NCBI GenBank assembly: GCA_963965975.1
Contig: OZ014412.1
Span: forward strand, 8,990,708 to 9,054,707
Length of the DNA: 64,000 bases
Source: Xestospongia bergquistia
Lineage: Eukaryota > Porifera > Demospongiae > Haplosclerida > Petrosiidae
Direction of reading: 5' to 3'
Part shown: one piece after another, positions 25,045 through 64,000 of the stretch
Layout: each line of letters starts with the position of its first letter
Position numbering within the stretch: position 1 is the stretch's first letter
Position numbers and translations under genes: made by a program
The notes under the pieces: model-generated
Seen by the model: the letters and a program-made list of their open reading frames with translations, nothing else
Told to the model about the DNA's origin: nothing
Databases searched by the model: none

Positions 25045-26310
25045 GATTATTAGGCGTATACAGGGATGGGACTGTCATGGAAAATTTGTTCCTAGTTAAA
25101 ATTGGACCTAGGTCCAATTTTTGCATGCAAAATTTGGACCTAGGTCCAATTTATGCAAGTTAAATTTGGACCTAGGACCAAATTTTGCTGCCTAATTTGG
25201 ACCTATATTGCAAAATTTGTTCCTAGAGATAGGTCCACTTTTTGCAACAAAATTTGGACCTAGGTCTACTTTTGGCAGCAAGACTTGGTCCCAAGTCCAA
25301 TTTGATCTGATTATAATAAGATTTAGCATTTAATCTAAATAAAGTCAGTACAAGTTATGTAATTATAGGTTATATTATATAGATAATGTTACAATTAATT
25401 AAGAGTTTTTATACAAGAGTCACATATCCATGATATGTGACTGTTGGTCTGCCAAATGACACTTGGGACTTCAACACAATCTTCATGATACCATTCTTTG
25501 CAGTCTTCGCACTCAATCATTCTACCCTCTTCTGGTTGACGACGCTTGCAGTATACTCTGAATTTCATATCAGCAACATATTGCTTTGCTTTCTTTCTTT
25601 GCTGCTGACAAGGGAAAGGGGTAATTGTCTTATTTTCAAGACAGTGACAAAGGTGGTCCCTCAATTGATGTTGAATGTAGGTTATTTGTGTTGGGGTTTG
25701 TCCACGCAAAGAGATGTGGCAAAAGCCAATGAAAAAAACCCACAATCACTTGTACCATGTTGTAGTTGAACTGGCTGAAAACACAAAGAAACTGAGAAAA
25801 TAATACAAACTTGTCCTGGTTTCTTCTCATAGTACACTTCTCCTTCTTTCATTGCTAGTTTGCCAGCCTTTTTCCTAATGCTTCTCTTCCTGTTAGCGGA
25901 ACAATCTGAGCCATAAGTTCCATTTTCTATGTAGTTTATTGCTTCCTCTGTCAGGTTCCCATCTTCTCTCTGCTGTGACATCGCTTTTTTGACACTTTGA
26001 AAACTTCACCAGGTGGCTAAAGCTCTCCATTTAAGTACATACAACATAAGAAGTGATAAATCAATTTGTATGTGTCAAATTCCACTTCTCTTTACCAAGT
26101 TATACAGTCTGAGACGCCTGGGTCCAAATATTGCAAGGCGGAATTAATTTTGCAGACTTTTTGTTGCCAAATTTGGTCCTAGGTCCAAATTTTGCACCTG
26201 GACCAAATTTTTCGTGACAGGACATCGATAAGGACATCCGGAAAGGACCGGAATTAAAACCTCTGAAAAAGGCGCAAAAAATCATAAGACTCTATACGCC
26301 CTATTAAGTG
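25045..26310. mobile_element. putative DNA transposon with palindromic subterminal repeats
   Basis: The left end (about 25045) reads TTATTAGGCGTATACAG. The right end (about 26310), reverse complemented, reads TTAATAGGGCGTATAGAG, an imperfect inverted repeat. Inside both ends lie copies of the palindrome TTGGACCTAGGTCCAA. There are several degenerate units from 25096 to 25300 and two or more at 26120-26215, as expected for transposase-binding subterminal repeats. The interior carries minus-strand Ulp1-like/PHD remnants. I could not define a clean target-site duplication, so boundaries are approximate. Confidence 0.5.
25395..25981 (-). pseudogene. Ulp1-like (C48) peptidase tail plus PHD finger relic
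   Basis: On the minus strand, a short 5' exon (25981 down to about 25812) precedes an exon carrying H-G-T-S-D-C-G-F-F-S-L-A-F-A-T, the catalytic-Cys segment typical of C48/Ulp1 peptidases. A one-base frame break near 25700 separates this from the downstream frame. That frame ends in a PHD-type zinc finger, with C-K-R-R, C-E-D-C, W-Y-H-E-D-C and W-I-C-D-S-C spacing, and a stop at 25395. The His/Asp part of the peptidase is missing. The sequence lies inside a putative transposon, so it is more likely mobile-element cargo than a host gene. Confidence 0.6.
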
Positions 26311-26312
26311 CC

Positions 26313-26318
26313 TGACGT
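26313..26318 (+). promoter_or_regulatory. CRE-like TGACGT upstream of the TIR gene
   Basis: TGACGT lies 28 bp before the TIR start codon. The same core occurs in one of the NLR/DEATH divergent promoters (11229-11234). Weak evidence, motif only. Confidence 0.25.
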
Positions 26319-26345
26319 TGTGTTTACAACGAGAGGCAAGTTGTC

Positions 26346-29302
26346 ATGAAGATCTTTATTAGTTACAGTAGTCCAATTAAGGAGGTTGCTGAGTTTGCTA
26401 AGAAACTGGAATCAAAGCTCGACAAGGTTAGCGAAACTTTTATCTTTCAAAACCCGAAGAAACATCCTGCTGGTGTTACATGGGGCAGCAATCTTGCTGA
26501 GAAAATACGCGATTGTGACGCTTTTATTGCTATAATAACCCAGGGATATCTTGACTCTGATATGTGCCATAAAGAATTTCATGCTGCTCATTTTATACAC
26601 AAAAAGTTGATTATACCAATTGTCTTTGAAGACCCAAAGTTTAAGGCTGATTATAAAAAAGGTCAATATGGAGCTGCTATAGAAATGGTAGTCAAGCCAA
26701 TACAATGGGTGATATTCAAAACTACAGACGTGGAGGAAAGTGCTTCAGAAGGCAAAATGTCTCCATATGAGCAAGTTCTTAATGGCTTAGGGCTTAAGGT
26801 TGTACCAGGTAAGTCACTTGATGTTATTATTAATGTTAGTTATTGTGTTTGCTTTTTTGCATTATGTACAGATGAAACAGAAGGTTCATCAATACAAGGA
26901 ATGTGTATTTTAATTATTATGAAGAGTAGACAAAGGGTAGAGGAATGTCAAACATTGGATAATACCATGAAAACTTTGTTGTAAAGTATGACGTAACAGG
27001 CACTTGTGTGTAAAATTTGTGTAAAGAGGATGATGGTTTTCTCTCACATTCTCAAGTGAGACTATAGGCTTTATTCATACTTTCTTAGAGATTTTCACAC
27101 AAATTCAGAGGCTACAACTTTAAAATAAGTTAATGAAAAAATTAAGAGCTTGTTTAGGGAAATGCTTTATGTGAATATCATTACTTTACACAAATTGATT
27201 CCATGGTACTTTGTGACATTTGACCTTTTATCTACTCTTTGTCTTATAGACCACTTAAATTGTAATAATTCTGTGTTGCATGTCTAGGGTGATGTGTGAA
27301 GGGTGAAGGATGTTAAAAATTTACACATTTAATTATAATTATTCACAATTGTGGTCTAATAGTTTATAATAATTATTTCATAAATACAAATTGGGGGTGT
27401 GACGCTATATAAACAGGGTGGACTTAAGCCAGTTATGCCCTCCTTTTTCTTTGTAAGCCATGCTGTTGAAGTACTTTTTAAGAGTTAATTTTATTGGCAT
27501 GCCTTCTGATGTCTTTATGACAATCCTTCTGATTGCTTAATTGTATTATAGTAATATGGTAATTTGTAAAACCGTGCATAGATACTCTAAAGCTTTTGTA
27601 CCCTAAAATATATATATGATTAATTTTCATGACTCAGTAATTGAAGTCACTGAACAGTTTTTATATATAACCATGTAGAATTGAGATTGTATCATTTTGT
27701 AATCTGTTATGTGGATAGTGTGCTGTTTAACAAATAGTTGATAAAAATAAGAAACTCTTACACAAAACTCAATACTACAAAAGATGCTTCCATACCAGAT
27801 AGAATAATAAGACCAAATAATGTTTGATGTTATTAGTTAAGATTAAAAATAAACTGCTATGGTCTTGTTTGTACCATCATTCTTCTTTCATTTTATTTTC
27901 TTGTATGCTGATACCTAGCTAGCTTGATAAACTATTCAAACTTTTAAAACTCCTATATATGGAAGCCTAAGGTGGACATACAAATCTACTTTGTAATTTC
28001 CAATTCTACCTCATAATTTCATATTCTACTTTGAATTTTTCCAAAAATATTCTAATTCCAATTCTATTGTCTATCCTTCAATGGAATATTTAGCAACTAA
28101 AATCCTATACTCCCACCCTAACTGGAAACATGTCACTTTGCTCCATTCTAAGAGACAGTTTGCAGTGCTCGCTTCACTCATTGAACTCAATGAAGTGAAG
28201 TGTGAGCACCGTGAGCTGTCTCTTAGAATGGAGTGAAGCGACATGTTTCCAATTAGGATGGGAGTATACGATTTTTTGTTAAATATTCCATCAAAGGATA
28301 GAAAATAGAATTGGAATTAGAATATTTTTGGAAAAATTCAAAGTAGAATATGAAATTACGATGTAATTATGGATTGCCGCCTTCGGCTTTGGTACCTATG
28401 AGGTATCGACATCTTCGAAATGGTTATTTTTGTTAAAAATTAGTTTGTATCACTGTGTATTTGTCATTAAAATAGCTGTCAGTATTGTCTTTGAATTGCT
28501 GCATTCCCAGCAAAGAACAGTTAAAATTACCATTAATTAAATAGTCTTGTCATATATGTTCTTAATTATAGGACAGTTTTTAATAACTGTAGTTTTTGTT
28601 TTGGCCACATGTTATGGATAATGTAATATGATATATATTATTATACTGAAAAATAAAAGATTTAAAAGTTGTCATGTATTAAAAGCAATGGCATCATCAA
28701 AAATTCGCAAGTGCTTTTGTTCTAGAAGATTCACAATATGAGATTTCTCTAGTTAACAAATATTAAATCGCTATATATAATAACATTACCTTATTACAAA
28801 TTATAATCAATTTTGTTATGTCATTATATAGAAGCTGAGAAACAGACAACTCCCACTCCCACAATGGTTTCACCAGTTTCTCGAGAGTTGTCAGGTAAGT
28901 TTTAGCTTAATTTTTATAATTTACCCCAAATAGATTGATTTAATGAATTTATTGTGATTGTGATCATTTTTTATTGTAGTTTTGGAAAAGCTTCTTCAGA
29001 CAAAATCACTCACTGAAGAAAGGTTGTCACTTGCATGTGATGAGAAGTTGTTTCTAGAGCTAAGTAGTCAGATACCACGATGTGATTTAACACTAGTTCT
29101 TAGTCTTGGATTAACATATGCTGATGAACAACATATCAAAAAAAATAAAGACAATGAGAAAGACAGGATAATTGCAACTTTAGTAAAATGGAAAGAAAAA
29201 AATGGCAGTGATGCTACTTACCTGGCATTAGTTAAGATCTTTATACGACATGAAAATCGTGAATTGGCTGAGTTCATATTGGATTACTTTATTTCTTTGT
29301 AA
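26346..29302 (+). CDS. TIR-DEATH protein
   Basis: Exon 1 (26346-26808, phase-1 end) encodes a TIR domain: F-I-S-Y-S at the N-terminus, a D-A-F-I-A-I-I-T strand, then S-D-M-C-H-K-E with Glu77 at the position of the NADase glutamate of catalytic TIRs, then L-I-I-P-I-V-F. Predicted exons 28832-28894 (linker) and 28980-29302 (DEATH, stop TAA at 29300) follow in phase, giving 282 residues. The linker and DEATH exons are near-identical to those of the NLR at 44829-45330. The likely role is cytoplasmic immune or cell-death signalling. TIR plus DEATH recalls MyD88, but the order is reversed. If the first intron is not removed, exon 1 reads on to a stop at 26984 as a TIR-only protein of 212 residues. 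The splice from 26808 to 28832 is inferred from phase and from the paralogue. Confidence 0.65.
27862..29284 (+). repeat. segmental duplication, partner 44216-45283
   Basis: Intron sequence, linker exon, 85-nt intron and DEATH exon are shared with the NLR locus at 44216-45283. From about 28818 to 28993 the two copies look identical, intron included. The upstream intron differs by substitutions and indels, and this copy additionally holds a MITE that the other lacks. Confidence 0.85.
27961..28390. mobile_element. foldback MITE, about 430 bp, in the TIR-gene intron
   Basis: Long inverted arms (about 27961-28165 and 28195-28390) pair over most of their length. The outer ends are GGAAGCCTAAGGTGGAC and the imperfect complement of CCGCCTTCGGCTTTGG. 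The homologous intron at about 44397 lacks it, so insertion followed the duplication. A second member of the family is at 42833-43243. No clear target-site duplication was found. Confidence 0.8.
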
Positions 29303-29337
29303 AGCCAAACTTTTTTCTAAATGATTTGTTACAATAC

Positions 29338-29343
29338 AATAAA
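29338..29343 (+). other. polyadenylation signal AATAAA
   Basis: A hexamer 36 nt after the stop of the TIR-DEATH gene. It supports a gene end here. Confidence 0.45.
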
Positions 29344-29892
29344 CAATAATGAATAAACAGTTTGTTGTTAATAATAAAAATAATTAGGTAAAACTACTAA
29401 ATTTTGAACACAGTAGTTTTTATATTTTTTTAAATAACTTTTTAATGATTCATAGCCTAGATTAAATAAGTAAGTGGTTTTGCCTGTTACGTTTTGATCA
29501 AAAATTGCTGGCATCTCTCTAAGAAATCTTCATAATAGATCTGTGGGCAGGCTCTTTCAGTCTTTTCATGTGACAGTGAATAGCAAAAAAATTCATCTAA
29601 ACATGTTCCACTCAAAGTTAAGTAAAGCCCACAAAATGTATTAATTAATTTTTGGTATTATCACTGTTCTATCCTACATGAAGTAATAATGGAGGAATGG
29701 GTAATATGAATATATATATAACAAGAATTACTGCTAAATATTCCCATTTATATCATTACTTTATTTATTGGTCAAATCATAAGCATATTTAGCTTCTTTG
29801 TTTATTCTAAATCTTTATATTCTGTAACTACAAATATTTTGGACATCACCTTCACAAGGATAGTAAACTTAAGAAGAAAAGTGGTAGTGTAG
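29344..29892. other. intergenic, nothing recognised
   Basis: AT-rich spacer. No open frame, repeat or motif that I can support. Confidence 0.4.
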
Positions 29893-32240
29893 GTCTTGTT
29901 TTAACAGAGGGAATCATCACTAAGGAGACACAAAGTCAAGAGTACTGGGGGCACTCTATCAGATAATCCATTGAGAGCATGGCTTACTAAATTATCTGAG
30001 AACCCAAGTATATTGGGAGTACTTGCTAGAATTTTATCATAATCAGAAGATACAATACAAATTATGTACTCAAAGTGTATGGTAAGTGGTTAATGTGATC
30101 ATTATTTCATATAGAGAGGAAAGATTTCCCAAATAAAGCTCATCAGGTAAGTTGTTATGTACTTTATACTTTAAGTATGCTTGTAAAGTTGCTTGAATGT
30201 CATATATAATAAATCTTTTCTACATGGCTCTACTTTGCTGTGTATGAACACTGATCCTCACACTCGTTACCTTAAACATTGTATTATCATATGTAATCTG
30301 AACGAAAAATCACTTTTCTTTCATAACGTAGTTGTAATACCATTCATCATAGTACTCAAGTTATACCAGCTTATCTTGTATTCAATATGCATTGTAATTA
30401 TTTTCTTTTATAGGTACCATAACACAGTTCATCTCTCACCTACTTATGAATACAATTTTGATTGGATAAGAGCAAAATTGGGAGACCTTTTTTGTGGTGT
30501 CACCTCTTCTTGAGTCTGCTGTTATGTCCAAATTTTGAAAGAGCTTAAGACATTTCCTTTGAATGTGTTTCCCAGAATTAAAACATCAATTGTATTTAAC
30601 TGAATCATTTGATGATGTTATGGATATAGTATGAGAGAAATGTACCATGATTAATGTCACTTGCTTTGAGACTATTGTTGAGTATTTAAAGATTGAAAAT
30701 GCTGAAACTGAAATTACATCCTACCCTTGCTAAAAGAGTACTAGTTAATTAAGTAAAGAAGGGCAACTCCATCATTGTGACATACTGTGCTTCATGCTAC
30801 ATAGTTGATGTTTTAGCGATCAAAGTTAAAATGAAACTTGACTTGCTGAAAGAGATGGGATTAATTAAAGTTACTTTTAAGTAACATACCATTTGGGGAT
30901 CTACATGCTAGGGATAAGGTATAAGACAGCATTATTAATAACTTAATTTTTAATAATAATACAGGAGAAAGAACTCTTGAGATGGAATTGTTTAATTGAT
31001 AAATATATGAGTTAAGAAAGATCAGCAACTATTGGAACTGAAATCACCTTTGGAACAGTCAGATAAAATGAATAGAATGAAGACATTTGGAGATTGAGCA
31101 GTTGACAAAAGTTACAAAAGGTTAGTTATATTCTGTGAGTAGTACATAATATGTATCATAGAATGTATAATTTGAAATGACAGATATTAAATATATAGGA
31201 CTGTTGTATTTTGTATATGTAGCATGAAGAAATTACACTTGGTTCAGATGAGTGTGTGTCTCTGTTAATTAGTTCACATACTCTTCACATAATAGAACTT
31301 TACCAACTTTAACCTCATAGTGTTGGAGCTGTTCTTGGACATTTATCAAAAAAGTACTACCTTTTAAACCCTTAAAATTCACCAGAGTAAAGTGAAGGCT
31401 GAGTTTTTTCATGACCTCCTAACAACTTTACCTTCCTCTCATCTCAAATCACTTGAATTTATTACTTGAATTACGTTTTGTGAAGTTGTTAAACTCAGTG
31501 TGTGCGAAAATGAGGACTTCATACCAGATCCATCCTCTCTTCTTAGATGCGAAACTATTGAGTTCGTTTTGGAATGGAAGATGGATGAACACACACTTTG
31601 TGAAATAAACGATCTGTTATGGAACACATTGAATGTATGGCTAAAGTTTTAGTTAAAGAAGTAAAGAAAAGGAACTCCATCATTGTAACATGCTATGCTT
31701 CATCCTATATGTAGTTGATATTTTACTAATCAAAGTTAAAATGAATCTTGGCATACTGAAAGAGATGTGATTAATAAAAATCACTATTGGTTATCATACC
31801 ATTTGGGATCTACATGCTAGGGATAAGGTATAAGACAATATTTTTCATAGTATTAAACATATTTTTTTAATAATACAGGAGATGAGAGCTCTTGAAGAGG
31901 AGATTGTTTCATTAAGAAATATACCAGTTGAGAGAGATCAGCAACTATTGGAGCTGAATTCATCTTTAGAACACTCAGAAAAAACGAGTAAAAAGAAGAC
32001 ACTAAAGATTGAGCAGTTGACAAAAGTTACAAAAGGTTAGTTATGTTCTGTGAGTAATACATAATATATATCATATAGTGTATAATTTGAAATGATAGAT
32101 TTTAAATATATTAGGAATGTTGTACTTTGTATATGTAGTATAAAGTAAATACAGTTACTATTGTCTATGTAGGTTATGTGATTGACGAGACAAGAAAAGA
32201 AAAAGAAGAGATAAAACATTTAATTAAACACTTAGAAGGT
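29893..32240 (+). pseudogene. DEATH-CARD gene relic, copy B, with duplicated tail
   Basis: The first exons, including the DEATH domain, are missing. It begins in the second death-fold segment (29893-30080, with stops), followed by remnants of the short exon (30117-30144) and the large exon (30415-30730). The C-terminal region is present twice, at 30727-31122 and 31470-32036, separated by an NLR LRR fragment (31232-31460). The second tail ends in a charged helix (E-E-I-V-S-L-R, T-K-V-T-K-G), and a further coiled-coil-like exon lies at 32172-32240. Frameshifts and stops are present in all parts. It derives from the same family as 62603-64000. Confidence 0.8.
31232..31460 (+). pseudogene. NLR LRR fragment inside DEATH-gene relic
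   Basis: A short LRR piece (S-D-E-C-V-S, Y-Q-L, L-P-S-S-H-L-K-S-L-E-F) joined to the intron after the first DEATH-gene tail. The junction resembles that at 13660-13700, implying a shared chimeric ancestor. Confidence 0.7.
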
Positions 32241-42326: not shown

Positions 42327-45300
42327 ATGGAGTCTTTTAATTCTCAAGCCGCCTATCAAGCTCTTTGTGACAACACAGCAAACATATTGGAAGCTAAACT
42401 TGATCTGCATTCAATAGCAGACAAACTAATTAGTCTTCGGATAATCGGGGATACCGATAAAGAGCGTATTACTGATAGATGTTCTGGCCAAACAACTAGA
42501 GACTGTACGGAACATTTGCTTCAAATTCTTATAGCTAACGTTAAAATTAATGGAATCGTGTTTGGTAAATTTATCGAAATTCTAAGAGAAGATGAGCATG
42601 AATGTAACCAGAGAGAGAAGGACCTCGCTGAAAAATTAATGGCAAGTTACAAAGGTAATAATCATTGATTGATAAAAAAATGCTAAAAAATATACTGTTA
42701 GTTGTTACACATATAGAATGACTAAAATATTTTCTATATGGAACACACATGTGCATATAAAACTTGAAATGATGTGCCTCTCCCTAACAATGCCTAAATA
42801 TGAGTTACTCCGAAGTGAGATCCCACAGTTACGGAAGCCGATGGCAGACATCCAATTCTACTTCGTAATATCATATTCTATTTTGAAGTTTACTGAAAAT
42901 ATCTGAAAGGAATTGGATGTCCGCCTTCCGCTTCCGTAAATTCTAGTTCGTATTTTCACATTCCGCTTTGAAGTTTTCCAAAAATATTGCAATCATTTCC
43001 AATTCTATTTTCAATCGCTCAATGAAGTGAAGCGCAAGCACCACGAGCCGTATGGTGGGAAGTCACATGTTTCCTGTTAGGTTGGTGGTATAGGATTTTA
43101 GTTATTAACTATTCCATGGAAAATAGAATTCGAATTGGAAATTTTGTGGAAAACTGTAAAGTAGAATTGGATATTTTCAAAAAACTTAAAAGCACAATAT
43201 GAAATAATTACAAACTAGAAATGGATGGCCGCCTTAGGCTTCCATATACACAGTTTATTCATATGGTGAACTCACATGATTATTAACATTATGAATTCAA
43301 TTAAATCTTGATTGTACAAGCCTAGCAGATCAAAAGTTTGAACATCATTCTTATGGTTGCAAAGATTGTATAATTAGCACTAGTGTCTATTAGAAGACTA
43401 TAGTTATAGAATGCTAGAAATACGGGCAGAGAGATGTTAGCCATTTTCTAAAACTCATGAAATATGTCGATGGGGATCAGGGATGGGGTCTAATACATTG
43501 AATAGTATTTAAATACAAATACAAATACTCTCAAAATATGAAATACAAAATACAAATACAAATACTTCTAACAGGAATGTATTTTAAATACAAATACAAA
43601 TACTCTCAAAATATGAAATACAAAATACAAATACAAATACTTCTAACAGGAATGTATTTTAAATACAAATACAAATACTTTGAAAAGTATTTAAATACTT
43701 TTCAAATACTTCTTTGTACTATCGCAGAACATCCCATTATGTGATTTTACATATAATTAACTAATCATTACAAATTATTGACTGCATCTAATAAACAGAA
43801 GTTCTTCAAATGTTTTGTCACAGATAGTCAGATAGTGTATATAACTTGTTGGTACTTATAGGTGTCAATTGATCTTACACATAATCTTGCAGAAGAAACA
43901 AAAAATTTAAAAAGGAGTATTTGAAGAATTCACAAAGTATTTGAAATACAAATACAAATACTTCCTGTTTCAAAAATTCAAAATACAAACACAAATACAA
44001 ATACTTTATAAAAGTATTTAAATACAGCTAAATACAAATACTCATGTATTTGACCCCAAGCCTGATGGGGATACAACATCTGAAAGAAGACCATAGTAGA
44101 AATGGGAGCATAAAAATCACACCATAATAACCACAACTTAATGCGCTCTACATGTTTAGTAAGACCTTAGTGTGTGGCTAAAATGTAGGAACTTTTATAC
44201 CACAATTTCTGCTATGGTCTTCTTTGTACCACTATTCCTACTTCTTTCATTTTATTTACTTGTATATAGATTGTGTATTCATTTTGATTTGTTTATTCAA
44301 ATGTTGGATAATATATTAATAACTTGAAGGCAACGAACAAGAATTAACATAAACACCTAGCTAGCTTGCTACACTTATCCAAACTTTAAAACTTTTACGA
44401 GATATTGTCAAAATGATTATTTTTGTTAAAAATTAGTTTGTATCACTATGATTTTGTCATTAAAATAGTTCTCAGCATTGTTCTGTAGTCTGGTGCTTGA
44501 ATTGCTGCATTCCTATCAAAGAACAATCAGTGTTACTATTAATTAAATCATCATGTCATATATGTTCTTAATTATAGGACAATTTTTAATAACTGTAGTT
44601 TTTATTTGGGCCATATGTTATGGATAATGTAGTATGATATATAATTTCTTAAAATCAAAGAAATACTGAAAAATAAGAGATGAAAGTTGTCATGTAGTTA
44701 AAGCAATGCCATCATCAAACATTGGCAAACTTGAGAATGTGTCTAGTTAACAAATATTACGTCACTAAATATAATGACATTACCTTATTCTAAATTATAA
44801 TCAATTTTTTGGTTATGTCATTATATAGAAGCTGAGAAACAGACAACTCCCACTCCCACAATGGTTTCACCAGTTTCTCGAGAGTTGTCAGGTAAGTTTT
44901 AGCTTAATTTTTATAATTTACCCCAAATAGATTGATTTAATGAATTTATTGTGATTGTGATCATTTTTTATTGTAGTTTTGGAAAAGCTTCTTCGGACAA
45001 AATCACTCACTGAAGAAAGGTTGTCACTTGCATGTGATGAGAAGTTGTTTCTAGAGCTAAGTAGTCAGATACCACGATGTGATTTAACACTAGTTCTTAG
45101 TCTTGGATTAACATATGCTGATGAACAACAAATCAAACAAAATAAAGACAATGAGAAAGACAGGATAATTGCAACTTTATTAAAATGGAGAGAAAGAAAT
45201 GGCAGTGATGCTACTTACCTGGCATTAGTTGAGATCTTTATACGACATGAAAATCGTAAATTGGCTGAGTTTATATTGGACTATGCTATTAAAAATGTAT

Positions 45301-48300
45301 GTTTGGTGCCTACAAGTAAAGACACATCAGGTAGTTATAACTATAGTATTATAATTATTAGCTAATAAGATACTAGAATACTATTTTGCATAGCTTGTGT
45401 ATCATAATTTAATTATTTTATTTCCTTGCTAAACTAAAAATTACCAGGTATATTGTAAATTGAATTACCATTAATTGAAATACTAATGTTGGAATTGCCC
45501 CAATTATACTAGGAATAGTTACATATGTTCAGTGATATACGACATATTTGGGACTAACATGTATTTCCAAAAGTTATCACAAAGAAAGGAGGCATAAGTG
45601 ATGAAAGTCAAGATTATATTATTGCTTTAATTCCCTATGACTGCATGTTTAAAATGTAACTGTAACTGTCATGATATGTGAAGTGATCTAGGTTACTACT
45701 ATATTTCATGCTGTACATTTTATACTACAGTTTTAGTTACAAATATTAAGTGACAAACAAACAGTAGTAATCCTTACTGACATATAGAGATGTGTACAAT
45801 TATTATGCTTTCAATATAACTCTATATTAATAAACCTTTGTTTGTCATTATGTTACAGAAGCTAAAAACCACGTTGTGGATCCCAAACCATCATGTCAGT
45901 CATTATCGAGAGCTTTCAGTTCTCAATTATCAATCACGCTACCCATTGAAATTAAATTTAACTTTAAATAGTAACAAGATTATTTTAATTGAACAAGCTA
46001 TAATTATTTTGGAAGATAATGACTTCATTAATTAGAGCTACAAAGATTGTATAATTAGTAATTGGTTCAATTGTAATAGGAATAGTTTCTTGTGTTCAGT
46101 GATATATGGCCAATTTGGCACTAATATGTATTGCTAAAAGTTATCACAAAGAAATGAGGTTTGAGTGATGAAAGTCAACATTAAATTATTGCTTTGATTC
46201 CCTATGACTGGATGTTTAAAATGCTGAGGCATGGAAGCTATTTCACAAACACAAAAAACCAAAATACTGTAATTGTCATAGTTTACGAAGTGATCTAGGT
46301 TATTATATTCATTAATACAATGCTGTACATGTAATGCTATAGTTTTGTTGCCAGGGTGACAGACAAAGGGTAGCAATCCTCACTAACTTAAAGATGTTTA
46401 CAATTATTATACTTTCAATATAACTCGAACCTTTATTTTTCATTATATTATAGAAGCCAAAAAACTAATTATGGATCCCAAACCATCATGTCAATCATTA
46501 TCAAGAACTTTCAGTTCTCAATTATCAGACATTCCAGATACAGCTGATGTTCCTGATCTTAACAATCCAGCTTCACAAATTTTTAATCGACACTACAATG
46601 ACCTTGTCAATGCCATAGCCAATTTGGGTCCCAAAATAGCAGATGAAATGGCTGATCTACTCTCCACACACAACCTTATAAGTATTGCAGAAAAGGATCG
46701 TGTTTATCAGTTATCATCAGTTCCAATTAAAGTAAAATCAATCCTTAGTTCATTAGGAGCTAATATTGAAAGAGGAAGAAAAGACAACAATCAACTTATT
46801 AGGTTTTTAGCTGTTTTACATGACAACTGGCAACATGTACCTACTTTAACAATATTAGAGGAAAAAATGAGAAGAGAGGCCAGTAAGTTGTGATTGGTTA
46901 TAATTGAACACACTTCACTTACGTTTTCTAAAACAGTTATCTCTGCTACAGAACAGACAGAAACAATAGTTGTAAATACATCAACATCTACAGTAGAGGG
47001 AGCAGGACTAGATATGACAACTGAGAGTAAGTAAATGACAAATTGCATTGTGGTTTATATCTAATTCCTTGCTTTATTAGGTTCTAAAAATCTTTCAAAA
47101 CATGATGATGATTATTCAGTCATTTCTGAATATGCAGACTATCTAAAATCACAGTATAAAATGGATCAAAAACCAGACAACAAATGGCCTCATCTTTTTA
47201 AAAAGTTCATTAATACTGACCTTGTCGAAGTCTCAGAGTCAGATGATGGATTTTCAAGGTCTACAATTCCGGGCAATTGTGAGGATGTTATTCGTAAGAA
47301 AGTTAAATATTTGCAAAGCAAAAGGAAAAACAGTTTACGCATTCTCTTGGAAGGGGCTCCTGGAATTGGAAAATCTACACTAGCACTCGAATTTTGTAGA
47401 AAATGGGCGAATCGAGAGCTTTTTACTGCTTATTATCTCGTTGTTTTGTTACCTCTAAGAGACAAAACAGTCCAGAAAGCCAAATGTCCAAGTGATCTGT
47501 TTTCTAATGAAGGTAATGAGTCAGGAAAAAATGTTTCCAAAGCTCTAAGTAGGTGTGGAGGTAAAGGGCTATTTATTATTTTAGAGGGTTTTGATGAGCT
47601 TTCAAAAGAATTTCAGGAGAAAGATTCTATTTTCATCAAGTTGCTTGATGGTAAAATGTTTCCAAATGCCACAGTAATGGTTACTACACGTCACAGTGCT
47701 ACAGCGCATTTACGAAGTTTAACTAAAGCCAAGTTTCAACTTCATTTAGAAATATCAGGCTTCAGTGAAAGCACAATAAAAGATTATGTTTCTGCATCAT
47801 TCAAGAGTAAAGCCAACATTATAACTTCATTCAATGACTATCTCGACCAATTCCCTCTCATAAAAGGTTGTCTCTATGTACCTCTTAATTTAGCAATTTT
47901 AACAGAAATTTTCTCTCAGAAGCAACGTCCAGAAACATTAACTGAGCTTTACACAGCTATAGTGAAAACACAACTGTTAAGATACCTTCATGAGCATGAT
48001 ATAAACTTTAAACTTGAAAAGATTGAGGATTTATTAAAATATCCAGAGATTTTTAAGAAGTTTTGTAAAGTCTGTGAGTTTGCCTATGAAAAGCTGTGTG
48101 ACCAAACTCTAGTTTTTGATGAACTACCAGAGGGATTAGATACTCTTGATCTAATTCAAAAAGAGTCTCAATCTCAAATACATTCAGGTATTTCCTACTC
48201 ATACAGCTTTCTTCATCCTACTTTCCAAGAATTTCTTGCTGCATATCACATGTCTCAACTTCATGAAGATGACCAGCAAAATTTATACAATTTTTTGACA

Positions 48301-49449
48301 AAAAAACAATCTTTTATTGTTGTTCTTCGTTTTTTTGCTGGTTTAACTGGTTTGAAATCAATAAAACTTACTTTTCCTAGAAAAATCTCTGACTTCAACT
48401 TAATTCAACAACTTTTTGAATCTAAGAACGAAAGATTAACAAAGCATCTACTTATAAACCCTGATAAACTTCAGCACATATTTCGAACATGGCCAACACC
48501 AACATTACAAGACTTTTATGCTCTAGGTTGGTGCATAAGACTAAGTAATTGCAAATGGGATCTGGGATTTCGTTTTCGTGGTTTGTCAAGTCATCATATT
48601 GCAATGCTTAAGAAAGGATTAGGTGAAGATCCAACAGGTCAGATTGAAATGATAAAAATTGGGCTAAATCCAATAGGAAATGAAGGTTTTAACCATTTAT
48701 TGGAAATTGCACCAAAAGCACTTGAAAATGTCTCTATTCTTGGCCTGAGGGGGATAAATCTGGACTCTTCTGCTAGCAATCAACTTGCTAAAAAACTTTC
48801 TCACACATTTTCACACCTAAGAAAGTTACATTTTCATGACAATCCTATTGAATGTGGTGGTCATGAACAGTTAATTAAAGCATTGTGCAATGTCCCATCA
48901 TTAAAAGAAGTATCTTTTTCTAAGCTTTCACCTGTAGAATGTTCTACTTTCTTGACAAAAACAAGTATTCAAAAAATTGAGCTTTGGCAACTACCTCATG
49001 ATAGTTTACAAGCAATTTCACTTTCTATTGCTAATGCTCAAAGTTGCTTTTTGCTGCGAATACATGACAGTGAAGTTACCAGTGAGAATGTTGCCAGTTT
49101 GCCACAAGTGCTACACAAAAACATTAAATTACAATCATTGGAGCTAATCAACTGTAGTATATCACGTGAAACTACCGAAATGATTACCAATGCAGTTACC
49201 ACCAATACCAGCATTAGAAATCTCAATCTTGATAATAATATGATTTGTGATAAAGATGCTTATCACATACTAGATATGCTTAAAAATAGAAAGACTCACC
49301 TCAAGAGTATCAATGTAAATCGCAATCCAATTGGAAAGAAATTATTCGAAAAAGTCATGAGGAAGCAAGCCAGATTATCTTTAAAATGGAAAAAACAAAT
49401 CCATTCTCATTTATTTGATAATAATCAAATTTATAAGCTTGATAACTAA
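42327..49449 (+). CDS. NLR receptor: CARD-DEATH-CARD-NACHT-LRR
   Basis: Predicted exons 42327-42654, 44829-44891, 44977-45330, 46454-46882, 46952-47026 and 47081-49449 join in phase 1 throughout, giving 1205 residues without a lesion. Residues 1-110 form a CARD (M-E-S-F-N-S-Q start), about 131-235 a DEATH domain (L-S-L-G-L-T-Y-A-D, G-S-D-A-T-Y-L-A-L) and about 285-385 a CARD-like fold. The NACHT has Walker A GAPGIGKS (508-515), Walker B I-I-L-E-G-F-D-E-L and sensor V-T-T-R-H-S, then Q-E-F-L-A-A-Y-H and LRRs to the C-terminus (about 900-1190). A cytoplasmic immune sensor with three N-terminal adaptor-type domains is inferred. Intron 1 (2.2 kb) carries two MITEs. The linker-DEATH exon pair is duplicated in the TIR gene at 28832-29302. 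A dead copy of exon 4's start lies at 45857-45930. Confidence 0.85.
42833..43243. mobile_element. foldback MITE, second member
   Basis: Ends GGAAGCC and GGCTTCC. The internal sequence matches the element at 27961-28390 (TTCCAATTCTATTTTCAAT, GAAGTGAAGCGCAAGCACC, ACATGTTTCCTGTTAGG). An internal right end plus left end at about 42905-42945 suggests a nested or partly tandem copy. It lies in intron 1 of the NLR at 42327. Confidence 0.8.
43478..44064. mobile_element. hAT-type MITE, 587 bp, TSD ATGGGGAT
   Basis: The terminal inverted repeats CAGGGATGGGGTC and CAGGCTTGGGGTC extend to 21 bp with 18 matches. They are flanked by the 8-bp duplication ATGGGGAT (43470-43477 and 44065-44072). An 8-bp duplication and CAGGG-type ends are classic for hAT. 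The interior is built of AAATACAAATAC-like repeats, including a 75-bp unit with starts at 43511, 43586 and 43661. No transposase. It lies within intron 1 of the NLR. Confidence 0.9.
44216..45283 (+). repeat. segmental duplication, partner 27862-29284
   Basis: The NLR-side copy of the linker-DEATH segment. It shows the MITE-free (empty) site near 44397. Confidence 0.85.
45857..45930 (+). pseudogene. truncated copy of NLR exon 4 start
   Basis: After an acceptor-like TTACAG, the sequence repeats the beginning of the CARD-like exon at 46454 (V-D-P-K-P-S-C-Q-S-L-S-R, F-S-S-Q-L-S). It then runs into a repeat and a stop at about 45970. If included by splicing it would truncate the receptor. Confidence 0.7.
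45927..46062 (+). repeat. dispersed repeat, also at 52964-53092
   Basis: Both copies run from ATCACGCTACCCATTGAAAT to GATTGTATAATTAGTAAT. The second copy lies in intron 1 of the NLR at 52401. Confidence 0.85.
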
Positions 49450-62602: not shown

Positions 62603-64000
62603 ATGGCAGAAAGAGAAGAACAATTGTATCATAGTATAAATAGTCAGCTAGGTAAGATTATGTTTGTCAAATGGTTATCAAAATCACTTATTGTCACATT
62701 TTCTAATTTTTAAAAATAGATGTTAGCGGTTTAAAAGATGTTACAGATGCTTTGATAAAGAGTTTTTTTCCACTGGATAAATGGTTTCCCCTTGGCCTTC
62801 AACTGGGCCTTTTGTCACCTACTCTGAAGGTCATTGAAACAGACCACAAACATAGTGTGGAGAGACGTCTACAAGAATGTTTGACTTGTTGGTTGAGTAA
62901 AGCTGACAAGGTTGATGAATATGGAGGTCCTACATTGGAGTCACTAGCTAGAGCTCTCAAAGAAATTGGAGAAGTTTCCACTGCTAACAATGTTATAAAA
63001 TCATTAAGTGAGAAAACCCATAGACATTTGCAATTTAAAATTGTTTATTTTCAAACAGAAACTTGTAAAATGTTACAGAAATGTTTTGATGAACTTATGC
63101 CTGATCCTATTCCTATGGAAGTATCCAAGTTATTATGTACAGAGGGAATCATCTCTAAGGAGACATTTCATGAAGTGGAGAGTTCTGGGGGCTCATTACC
63201 AGATAGTCCATTGAGAGTACTGTTTACTAAATTATCTGAGGATCCTAACATATTGGGAGTACTTGCTAGAGTTTTATCAGAAGATACAATACGTGTAGCA
63301 AAATATATACTTAAAGTGTATGGTGAGCAATTTAAATTCAAAGAAATGTGATCATTATTTCATATACAGAGGAAAATTTTCCCAAAGCCCCTTTACAAGC
63401 ATCAGGTAGGTTAATTGTTATTGTACTTTGTACTTTAAATATGTAAAGATGTTTGAATGTTGTAATAAACTATTCTACATGACTCTACTTTGCTGTGTAT
63501 GAAATGAACACAGATCCTCACACTCATTAACTTAAAGGCTTAGACATTATATTATCATTAAAAAACTATGTAATCTGAATAAATAATCACTTTTCTTTAA
63601 TAATGTAGTTGTTCCTTTCAGATGCTACCACTCATCACAATACTCAAGCTATATCAATGAATGTCCAAAGTCAGTCTATGTGGTATTCAATGTGTATTGT
63701 AATAATTTTCTTTTATAGGTACCATAACACAGCTTCATCTCTCACCTACTTATAAATGCGATTTTGATCAAATAAGAGCAAAATTGGGAGAACTTTTTCT
63801 TGTGGTGTCACCTCTTATTGAATCTGCTGTTACATTGAAAGATCTCAAAAGATATCTTCGATTGTGTTTCCCAGAGTTAAAACCTCAATTATCTTTAGCT
63901 GAGTCATTTGATGATGTTATGGATGTAGTACGAGAGAAATGTACCATAATTAATGTCGCTTGCTTGGAGGCTATCGTTAAGCATTACAAGATTGAAAATG
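62603..64000 (+). CDS. DEATH-CARD protein with unknown C-terminal region (partial)
   Basis: Exons 62603-62651, 62720-63322, 63370-63405, 63622-63669 and 63719 to the window end join in phase 1 without lesions. Residues about 20-105 form a DEATH domain (W-F-P-L-G-L-Q-L-G-L-L, C-L-T-C-W-L-S-K, G-G-P-T-L-E-S-L-A). Residues about 120-215 resemble a CARD (C-F-D-E-L-M-P-D-P-I-P, G-I-I-S-K-E-T-F-H). The exon from 63719 starts a further region (F-D-Q-I-R-A-K-L-G-E-L-F, C-T-I-I-N-V-A-C-L-E-A-I) whose continuation is seen only in the relics at 11269 and 29893. An adaptor-like signalling role is inferred. The protein continues beyond the window. The exon 4 donor (GTCAGT at 63670) is the only phase-compatible choice that I found. 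Confidence 0.8.

Follow-up and report, generated by a model that had tools for sequence, protein, structure and literature searches.

The 64-kb stretch of DNA analysed here (the window; C2:8990708-9054707 of a 146-Mb assembly of 21 contigs, possibly a demosponge's from its NLR make-up) lies in a cluster holding 29 of the 95 NACHT matches listed genome-wide, and we tentatively read one of its loci as a chimeric TIR gene that has acquired the DEATH domain of this NLR cluster and that would act as an effector or adaptor addressed to NLRs. In it, a C5-type TIR gene continues, through phase-1 introns, into linker and DEATH exons that belong to the local cluster.

The gene model comprises three exons on the forward strand. 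The TIR exon (26346..26808) starts with an ATG at 26346, spans 463 nt (154 codons plus one base) and, as the initial annotation had proposed, ends in phase 1; its donor is CCAG/GTAAGT. It is followed by a linker exon of 63 nt (28832..28894, phase 1 to 1) and by a DEATH exon (28980..29302) closing with the stop codon TAA. Spliced at these consensus sites, the three exons would encode an in-frame product of 282 residues, phase 1 throughout, with about 21 linker residues outside the two domains. The expected order, TIR followed by DEATH, holds for the spliced model and reverses that of MyD88, in which DEATH is N-terminal and TIR C-terminal. The TIR scores above the Pfam cut-off for TIR_2 (PF13676: 54 bits, E 3e-14, cut-off 28) and slightly below that for TIR (PF01582: 21 bits, cut-off 21.3), while the DEATH is above the cut-off for Death (PF00531: 6.1e-8, 33.1 bits, cut-off 22.6). 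PF13676 is described in a TIR atlas as a TIR marker, uninformative on subtype (PMC13142454). Upstream of the ATG there is a leader common to the C5 TIR copies (26232..26345), and a pattern scan located an AATAAA resembling a poly(A) signal 36 nt 3' of the stop (29338..29343), in an AT-rich region. By eye, a donor-like GTAAAG (29299-29304) overlaps the DEATH stop codon. No Rfam family matched within the 64-kb window.

Genes of this family can have a short second exon, which is 27 nt long in the window gene as in the C5 copies, and similar in C1b, C10a and C10c. In the window this mini-exon (DETEGSSIQ, 26872..26898, phase 1 to 1) is followed by GA at 26899-26900, where C5a, C5b and C5c have the GT of a donor. 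Loss of an internal donor mostly leads to exon skipping, and here it favours a direct splice from TIR to linker that keeps the frame, so that the mini-exon is probably skipped in the window gene. We give transcription and splicing of the TIR-linker-DEATH model a probability of a little over one half.

Counterparts of the last two exons can be seen in the NLR gene downstream, on the same strand. This gene has a CARD-like exon (42327..42654; phase-1 end G/GTAATA; Pfam CARD_2 18 bits, below the cut-off of 28.2), a linker exon (44829..44891), a DEATH exon (44977..45330) and a NACHT frame with an LRR-like C-terminal part (47065..49449; NACHT 1.8e-23; LRR_1 13.2 bits, below the cut-off of 20.6). The claim that the TIR gene has near copies of the NLR's linker and DEATH exons is borne out, with a likeness beyond chance: the linker (63/63) and the linker-DEATH intron (85/85) are identical to those of the NLR 16 kb downstream, and the DEATH shares 92% protein identity with the one at 44977, placing it in the DEATH subtype of its neighbour. 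The linker is entered through the same junction, E-AEKQTT, after the window TIR exon and after the CARD-like exon, both in phase 1, meaning that the TIR occupies the place of the CARD-like exon in the NLR. Between its DEATH and NACHT exons, the NLR also shows a duplicated exon (45857-45930, EAKNHVVDPKPSCQSL; 46452-46530, EAKKLIMDPKPSCQSL), the first copy of which soon diverges.

Pairwise comparison of both genes delimits a tract of 336 bp (28798..29133), spanning the acceptor, the linker, the intron and the first half of the DEATH exon, with one substitution (28998) and one 3-nt indel relative to the NLR, intron included. In the flank (28415-28810) differences amount to 0.131 per bp (about 13%), with more gaps besides. 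A nearly identical tract next to such a divergent flank points to recent gene conversion with the NLR, which would have produced the linker and the 5' part of the DEATH exon as they stand. Diversifying selection was also considered from the pairwise DEATH differences and dropped, these differences resembling a mosaic of paralog tracts.

This DEATH type hardly occurs outside the cluster. Close copies were taken to be matches with 50% identity or more over almost the whole length, a definition that retained 16 of 85, the window gene included. Fifteen of the 16, again counting the window gene, are found in C2:8.92-9.15 Mb, and 14 lie within 10 kb of a NACHT among those listed, a neighbourhood covering 0.8% of the genome. 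For one of these 14, the second copy described below, the nearest listed NACHT is on the opposite strand. The remaining two are the window gene itself, 13.0 kb from a listed NACHT, and a copy on C5.

About 20 genes in this genome make up the family of this TIR. A search with the window TIR gave 33 matches, some partial or broken, and 13 of them were aligned, leaving out near-identical C4 copies together with the partial or broken ones. The TIR exon ends in a phase-1 G/GT[AG][AT] at 11 of the 13 loci, window included (9 of 13 as G/GTRAG; the donor of C1c is GTATGC and that of C4e GTGAAT), the two non-matching loci being C10a, with A/GTAAGT, and C4a. Third exons vary. Those of C5b and C10a, both read as starting in phase 1, probably encode a DEATH, with Pfam Death scores of 17-18 bits; since these are below the cut-off of 22.6 and L083 has no Pfam Death match, the name is probable rather than certain for this group. 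In C1b the third exon is CARD-like, 38% identical to the NLR exon (both below the Pfam cut-off), in C1a the CARD-like frame is interrupted, and the candidate third exon of C1c matched neither Death nor CARD in Pfam. C10b and C10c have what looks by eye like a membrane helix, and a DEATH exon of this kind is absent from the stretch read for C5a. The 28 best CARD matches all lie more than 10 kb from any listed NACHT, and closer than that are just three chosen from the cluster, so the CARD series lends no support to a general match with NLRs. As for other arrangements, C4:6012656-6018579 contains five tandem TIR matches of equal score spaced by 1.2-1.5 kb, with more TIR matches nearby, and C9:634039-634950 is a single open frame of 810 codons with two TIR_2 matches.

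In this family, a TIR with a DEATH behind it is probably the older arrangement, since a probable DEATH lies downstream in phase 1 both in C10a, where the TIR is open, and in C5b, where it is frameshifted. The initial annotation regarded the gene as TIR-DEATH built from an NLR exon pair. The TIR does precede an NLR-derived pair and the DEATH does match its neighbours, but the layout itself probably came earlier; what changed in the window gene would be the type of DEATH that its TIR carries. DEATHs of the C5b type gave no hit in C2:8.8-9.2 Mb among the 150 scored of 795 candidates. Elsewhere, a listed NACHT is no more than 10 kb away for 16 of the first 85 matches, so that this type also occurs beside NLRs. 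By BLASTP the window DEATH did not match the C10a exon (E 0.52); a profile of C5b, C10a and L083 aligned to the NLR-type DEATH profile with 86.5% probability over 67 columns.

The junction of the chimera can be located within intron 1. Homology to the C5b TIR gene extends from 26232 to 27856 (85%), homology to C5a ends at 27372 (84%), and sequence of the NLR-cluster type begins at 27854, so that a stretch of the intron (27007..27856) derives from the TIR gene. A second copy (C2:8945722-8949447) is homologous to 27007-30831 and lacks the TIR exon; at its left edge the homologue of 31582 is joined to that of 27007. It has TIR-derived and then NLR-derived sequence, in the order of the window, with about 114 bp more at the join that were seemingly lost in the window, and it alone preserves the exact breakpoint. 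Similarity to the window is 92% on the TIR-derived side and 98.3% from 27854 onward. The shared order argues that the chimera is probably not newborn, and its TIR frame is open all the same; the join would be older than the split of the window gene and the second copy, and the right-hand part would have been homogenised later. However, in 27007-27340 the second copy (92.4% identity to the window) is hardly closer than C5c (92.0%), and with the breakpoint preserved in no other copy, two independent joins of TIR and NLR sequence are possible. The DEATH exon of the second copy (L040:1681-2003; C2:8947597-8947919) has kept its frame open; it differs from that of the window gene in 10 codons, and 9 of these differences change the residue.

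A dispersed repeat lies directly upstream of the leader (26100..26229; at least 34 other copies with 88-99% identity, from 40 of 109 candidates scored), and the sequence becomes homologous to the C5 TIR genes just after it, at 26232, so sequence more than 114 bp upstream of the ATG is not C5-like. A near-palindromic foldback element with arms 86-93% complementary (28007..28365) is found within intron 1, and also in the second copy. By eye, frames on the reverse strand at 25395-26005 look transposon-derived, with PHD-finger-like and protease-like motifs, and 29876-31700 contains degenerate-looking fragments of another immune-type gene, related to frames near 62707-64000.

From such surroundings one can suspect a decaying pseudogene, a TIR fragment in a turbulent NLR cluster whose exon pair is an untranslated passenger kept young by conversion. 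We consider this somewhat unlikely, yet a good part of the evidence fits it. Against its nearest paralog, C5a, the window TIR has a dN of 0.114 and a dS of 0.104, a ratio of about 1.1 that leaves room for this reading, and substitutions are as frequent in the TIR exon (0.104) as in the flank downstream of it (0.099). The C5 TIR subfamily decays, as seen in C5b, which has a frameshift, and in C5c, where most of the TIR is gone. The lost donor of the mini-exon, the repeat where C5-like sequence would be expected, the second copy without a TIR and the degenerate-looking gene pieces downstream point the same way. An open TIR frame is unremarkable alone, with a probability of about 0.35 of staying stop-free after 24 random substitutions. 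Indels, however, are under-represented: relative to C5a the TIR exon has a single one, which keeps the frame, and a comparable length downstream has 10 (Poisson 5e-4). The core of the domain is spared too: at all 24 columns on which the other 11 paralogs agree, the window gene has the common residue, and of its 35 differences from C5a just one is inside these columns (P 0.011). Moreover, the donors, acceptors and DEATH frame of the model are intact. Compared with 11 more distant paralogs, dN is well below dS (ratios of about 0.2-0.45). Among close pairs, dN also exceeds dS in C4a-C4b and C4d-C4e, and is about half of it in C1a-C1c and C10b-C10c.

If the gene works, its TIR could be an enzyme or a scaffold. 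The initial annotation had singled out a glutamate, Glu77 in C-H-K-E (codon 26574..26576), as the equivalent of the catalytic residue of NADase TIRs. Its position is as stated there, and the residue is invariant across the 13 aligned paralogs and across the 12 bacterial relatives, the latter retrieved by patterns that did not contain it. Gly43 is likewise invariant in the 12 bacterial relatives. As a sign of catalysis Glu77 is weak. In the SARM1-type pocket, W71 and E75 bind the ligand (PMC7075850); the Trp at -4 from the Glu is replaced by Met73 in the window and is absent from all 13 paralogs, while by eye three of the 12 bacterial relatives have it. According to the cited part of a TIR survey, this Glu is present in more than 70% of TIRs with no strict link to NADase activity, frequent in TLR1/2/6/10 and rare at the equivalent position of MyD88 (PMC7075850), so by itself it says little about catalysis.

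Structure prediction had been proposed as a check. A model from the single sequence was too poor (mean pLDDT 56) and was replaced by one from the 13-row alignment (mean pLDDT 76.9), which has a TIR fold and whose best matches among solved structures are the SPARTA TIR-APAZ and plant RPS4, SARM1 also being below 1e-3. TLR15 and MAL are below 1e-3 as well and MyD88 reaches 2.8e-3, all with modest TM-scores (best listed 0.65), showing that NADases cannot be told from other TIRs by this fold. As a single sequence against the PDB, the window TIR reached a best E of only 0.15. The profile of the family is closest to the CRISPR TIR Cat1 (7.5e-8), which has NADase activity, followed by MyD88, flax TIR, SIGIRR and TLR1, with SARM1/tir-1 at 0.0067. 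NADase activity of the window TIR is possible. A catalytically dead TIR that relays or blocks DEATH assembly, as a MyD88-like adaptor or a dominant-negative decoy, would agree with the missing Trp, with a Glu that alone is not diagnostic (PMC7075850) and with MyD88 ranking second in the profile search; we find it unlikely in view of Glu77 and Gly43 being invariant in the bacterial relatives and of the proximity to Cat1, although, as the non-enzymatic branch of our preferred explanation, it overlaps with it in probability.

That the locus is a TIR-only gene, with transcripts ending near 26984, unspliced or with the mini-exon last, and DEATH exons that belong to nothing, is quite improbable: the unspliced frame does run on to 26984 (222 aa), the end point that the initial annotation had named as refuting, and by eye a mini-exon included without its donor would reach the same stop, but the GTAAGT donor at 26808 is placed as in the paralogs, donor loss mostly gives skipping, which here preserves the frame, and a pattern scan found no AATAAA or ATTAAA between 26984 and 27842.

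Under our preferred reading of a chimeric TIR gene addressed to the NLRs, an activated and oligomerised DEATH-bearing NLR of the cluster would recruit the TIR-linker-DEATH protein by DEATH-DEATH contact. Recruitment would bring TIRs together, and once clustered they may consume NAD as an executor or serve as a TIR scaffold. Through the exchange of DEATH, a TIR output that formerly answered to a different set of DEATH proteins would have been redirected to this NLR cluster. The plausibility of such recruitment gains from a DEATH-fold adaptor of the sponge Amphimedon that, when tested, can hold a nucleation barrier (PMC13012725). A more specific version, in which the cluster has its own TIR NADase, triggered through a near-private DEATH subtype whose members are kept matched by gene conversion, seems doubtful to us at present. 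If true, animals would have here an equivalent of the plant TIR-NLRs and the bacterial STAND/TIR pairs, arrived at through phase-1 exon exchange.

The nearest concept to the window gene, by analogy, is the rule of effector-associated domains in bacteria, where a bDLD3-STAND NTPase adjoins a bDLD3-TIR (PMC8195603). In these pairs, as in the window, one death-like domain is present on a STAND NTPase and on a nearby TIR, and homotypic contact could link them; in contrast, the window gene is animal, has a PF00531 DEATH and introns, and has exchanged exons with an NLR; the comparison is one of layout. MyD88 shares with the window protein one TIR and one DEATH. The opposite order sets the window protein outside MyD88, together with a TIR that scores better as TIR_2 than as TIR, the presence of the Glu and a DEATH like that of the local NLRs. 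The sponge Dysidea avara has a single TIR-DEATH gene, which has been called a MyD88 orthologue (PMC12909245), and Mnemiopsis has one TIR2-plus-death protein named 'Myd88-like' (PMC11797021). Sponge and ctenophore TIR2 genes resemble the window family in having a PF13676 TIR and in being expanded, but the window gene has partner exons matched to NLRs, and none are named for TIR2 genes in the cited parts of these studies (PMC12909245, PMC11797021).

The TIRs of SARM1, plant TIR-NLRs and SPARTA have in common with the window TIR the fold, the conserved Glu and a place among the best structure matches. They differ in that the Trp at -4 of SARM1 is absent and the receptor is a separate protein in the window. 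SARM1 has ARM and SAM domains alongside its TIR; Pfam searches of the TIR and DEATH exons found no ARM, SAM, NB-ARC or APAZ in the window gene, setting it apart from SARM1. In the cited part of a 2020 survey, SARM1 is named as the one metazoan TIR for which NADase activity is known (PMC7075850).

We found no description of a TIR gene with the DEATH of an NLR cluster in the open-licence papers searched. To our knowledge, NLR signalling in animals outside vertebrates is largely open. A DEATH nearly confined to one cluster, and partly near-identical to that of a neighbour, yields the testable prediction that NLRs there would signal to a TIR by homotypic DEATH contact. More broadly, a TIR family with probable DEATH, CARD-like and membrane-helix exons behind phase-1 introns would offer a natural series on how TIRs are re-addressed.
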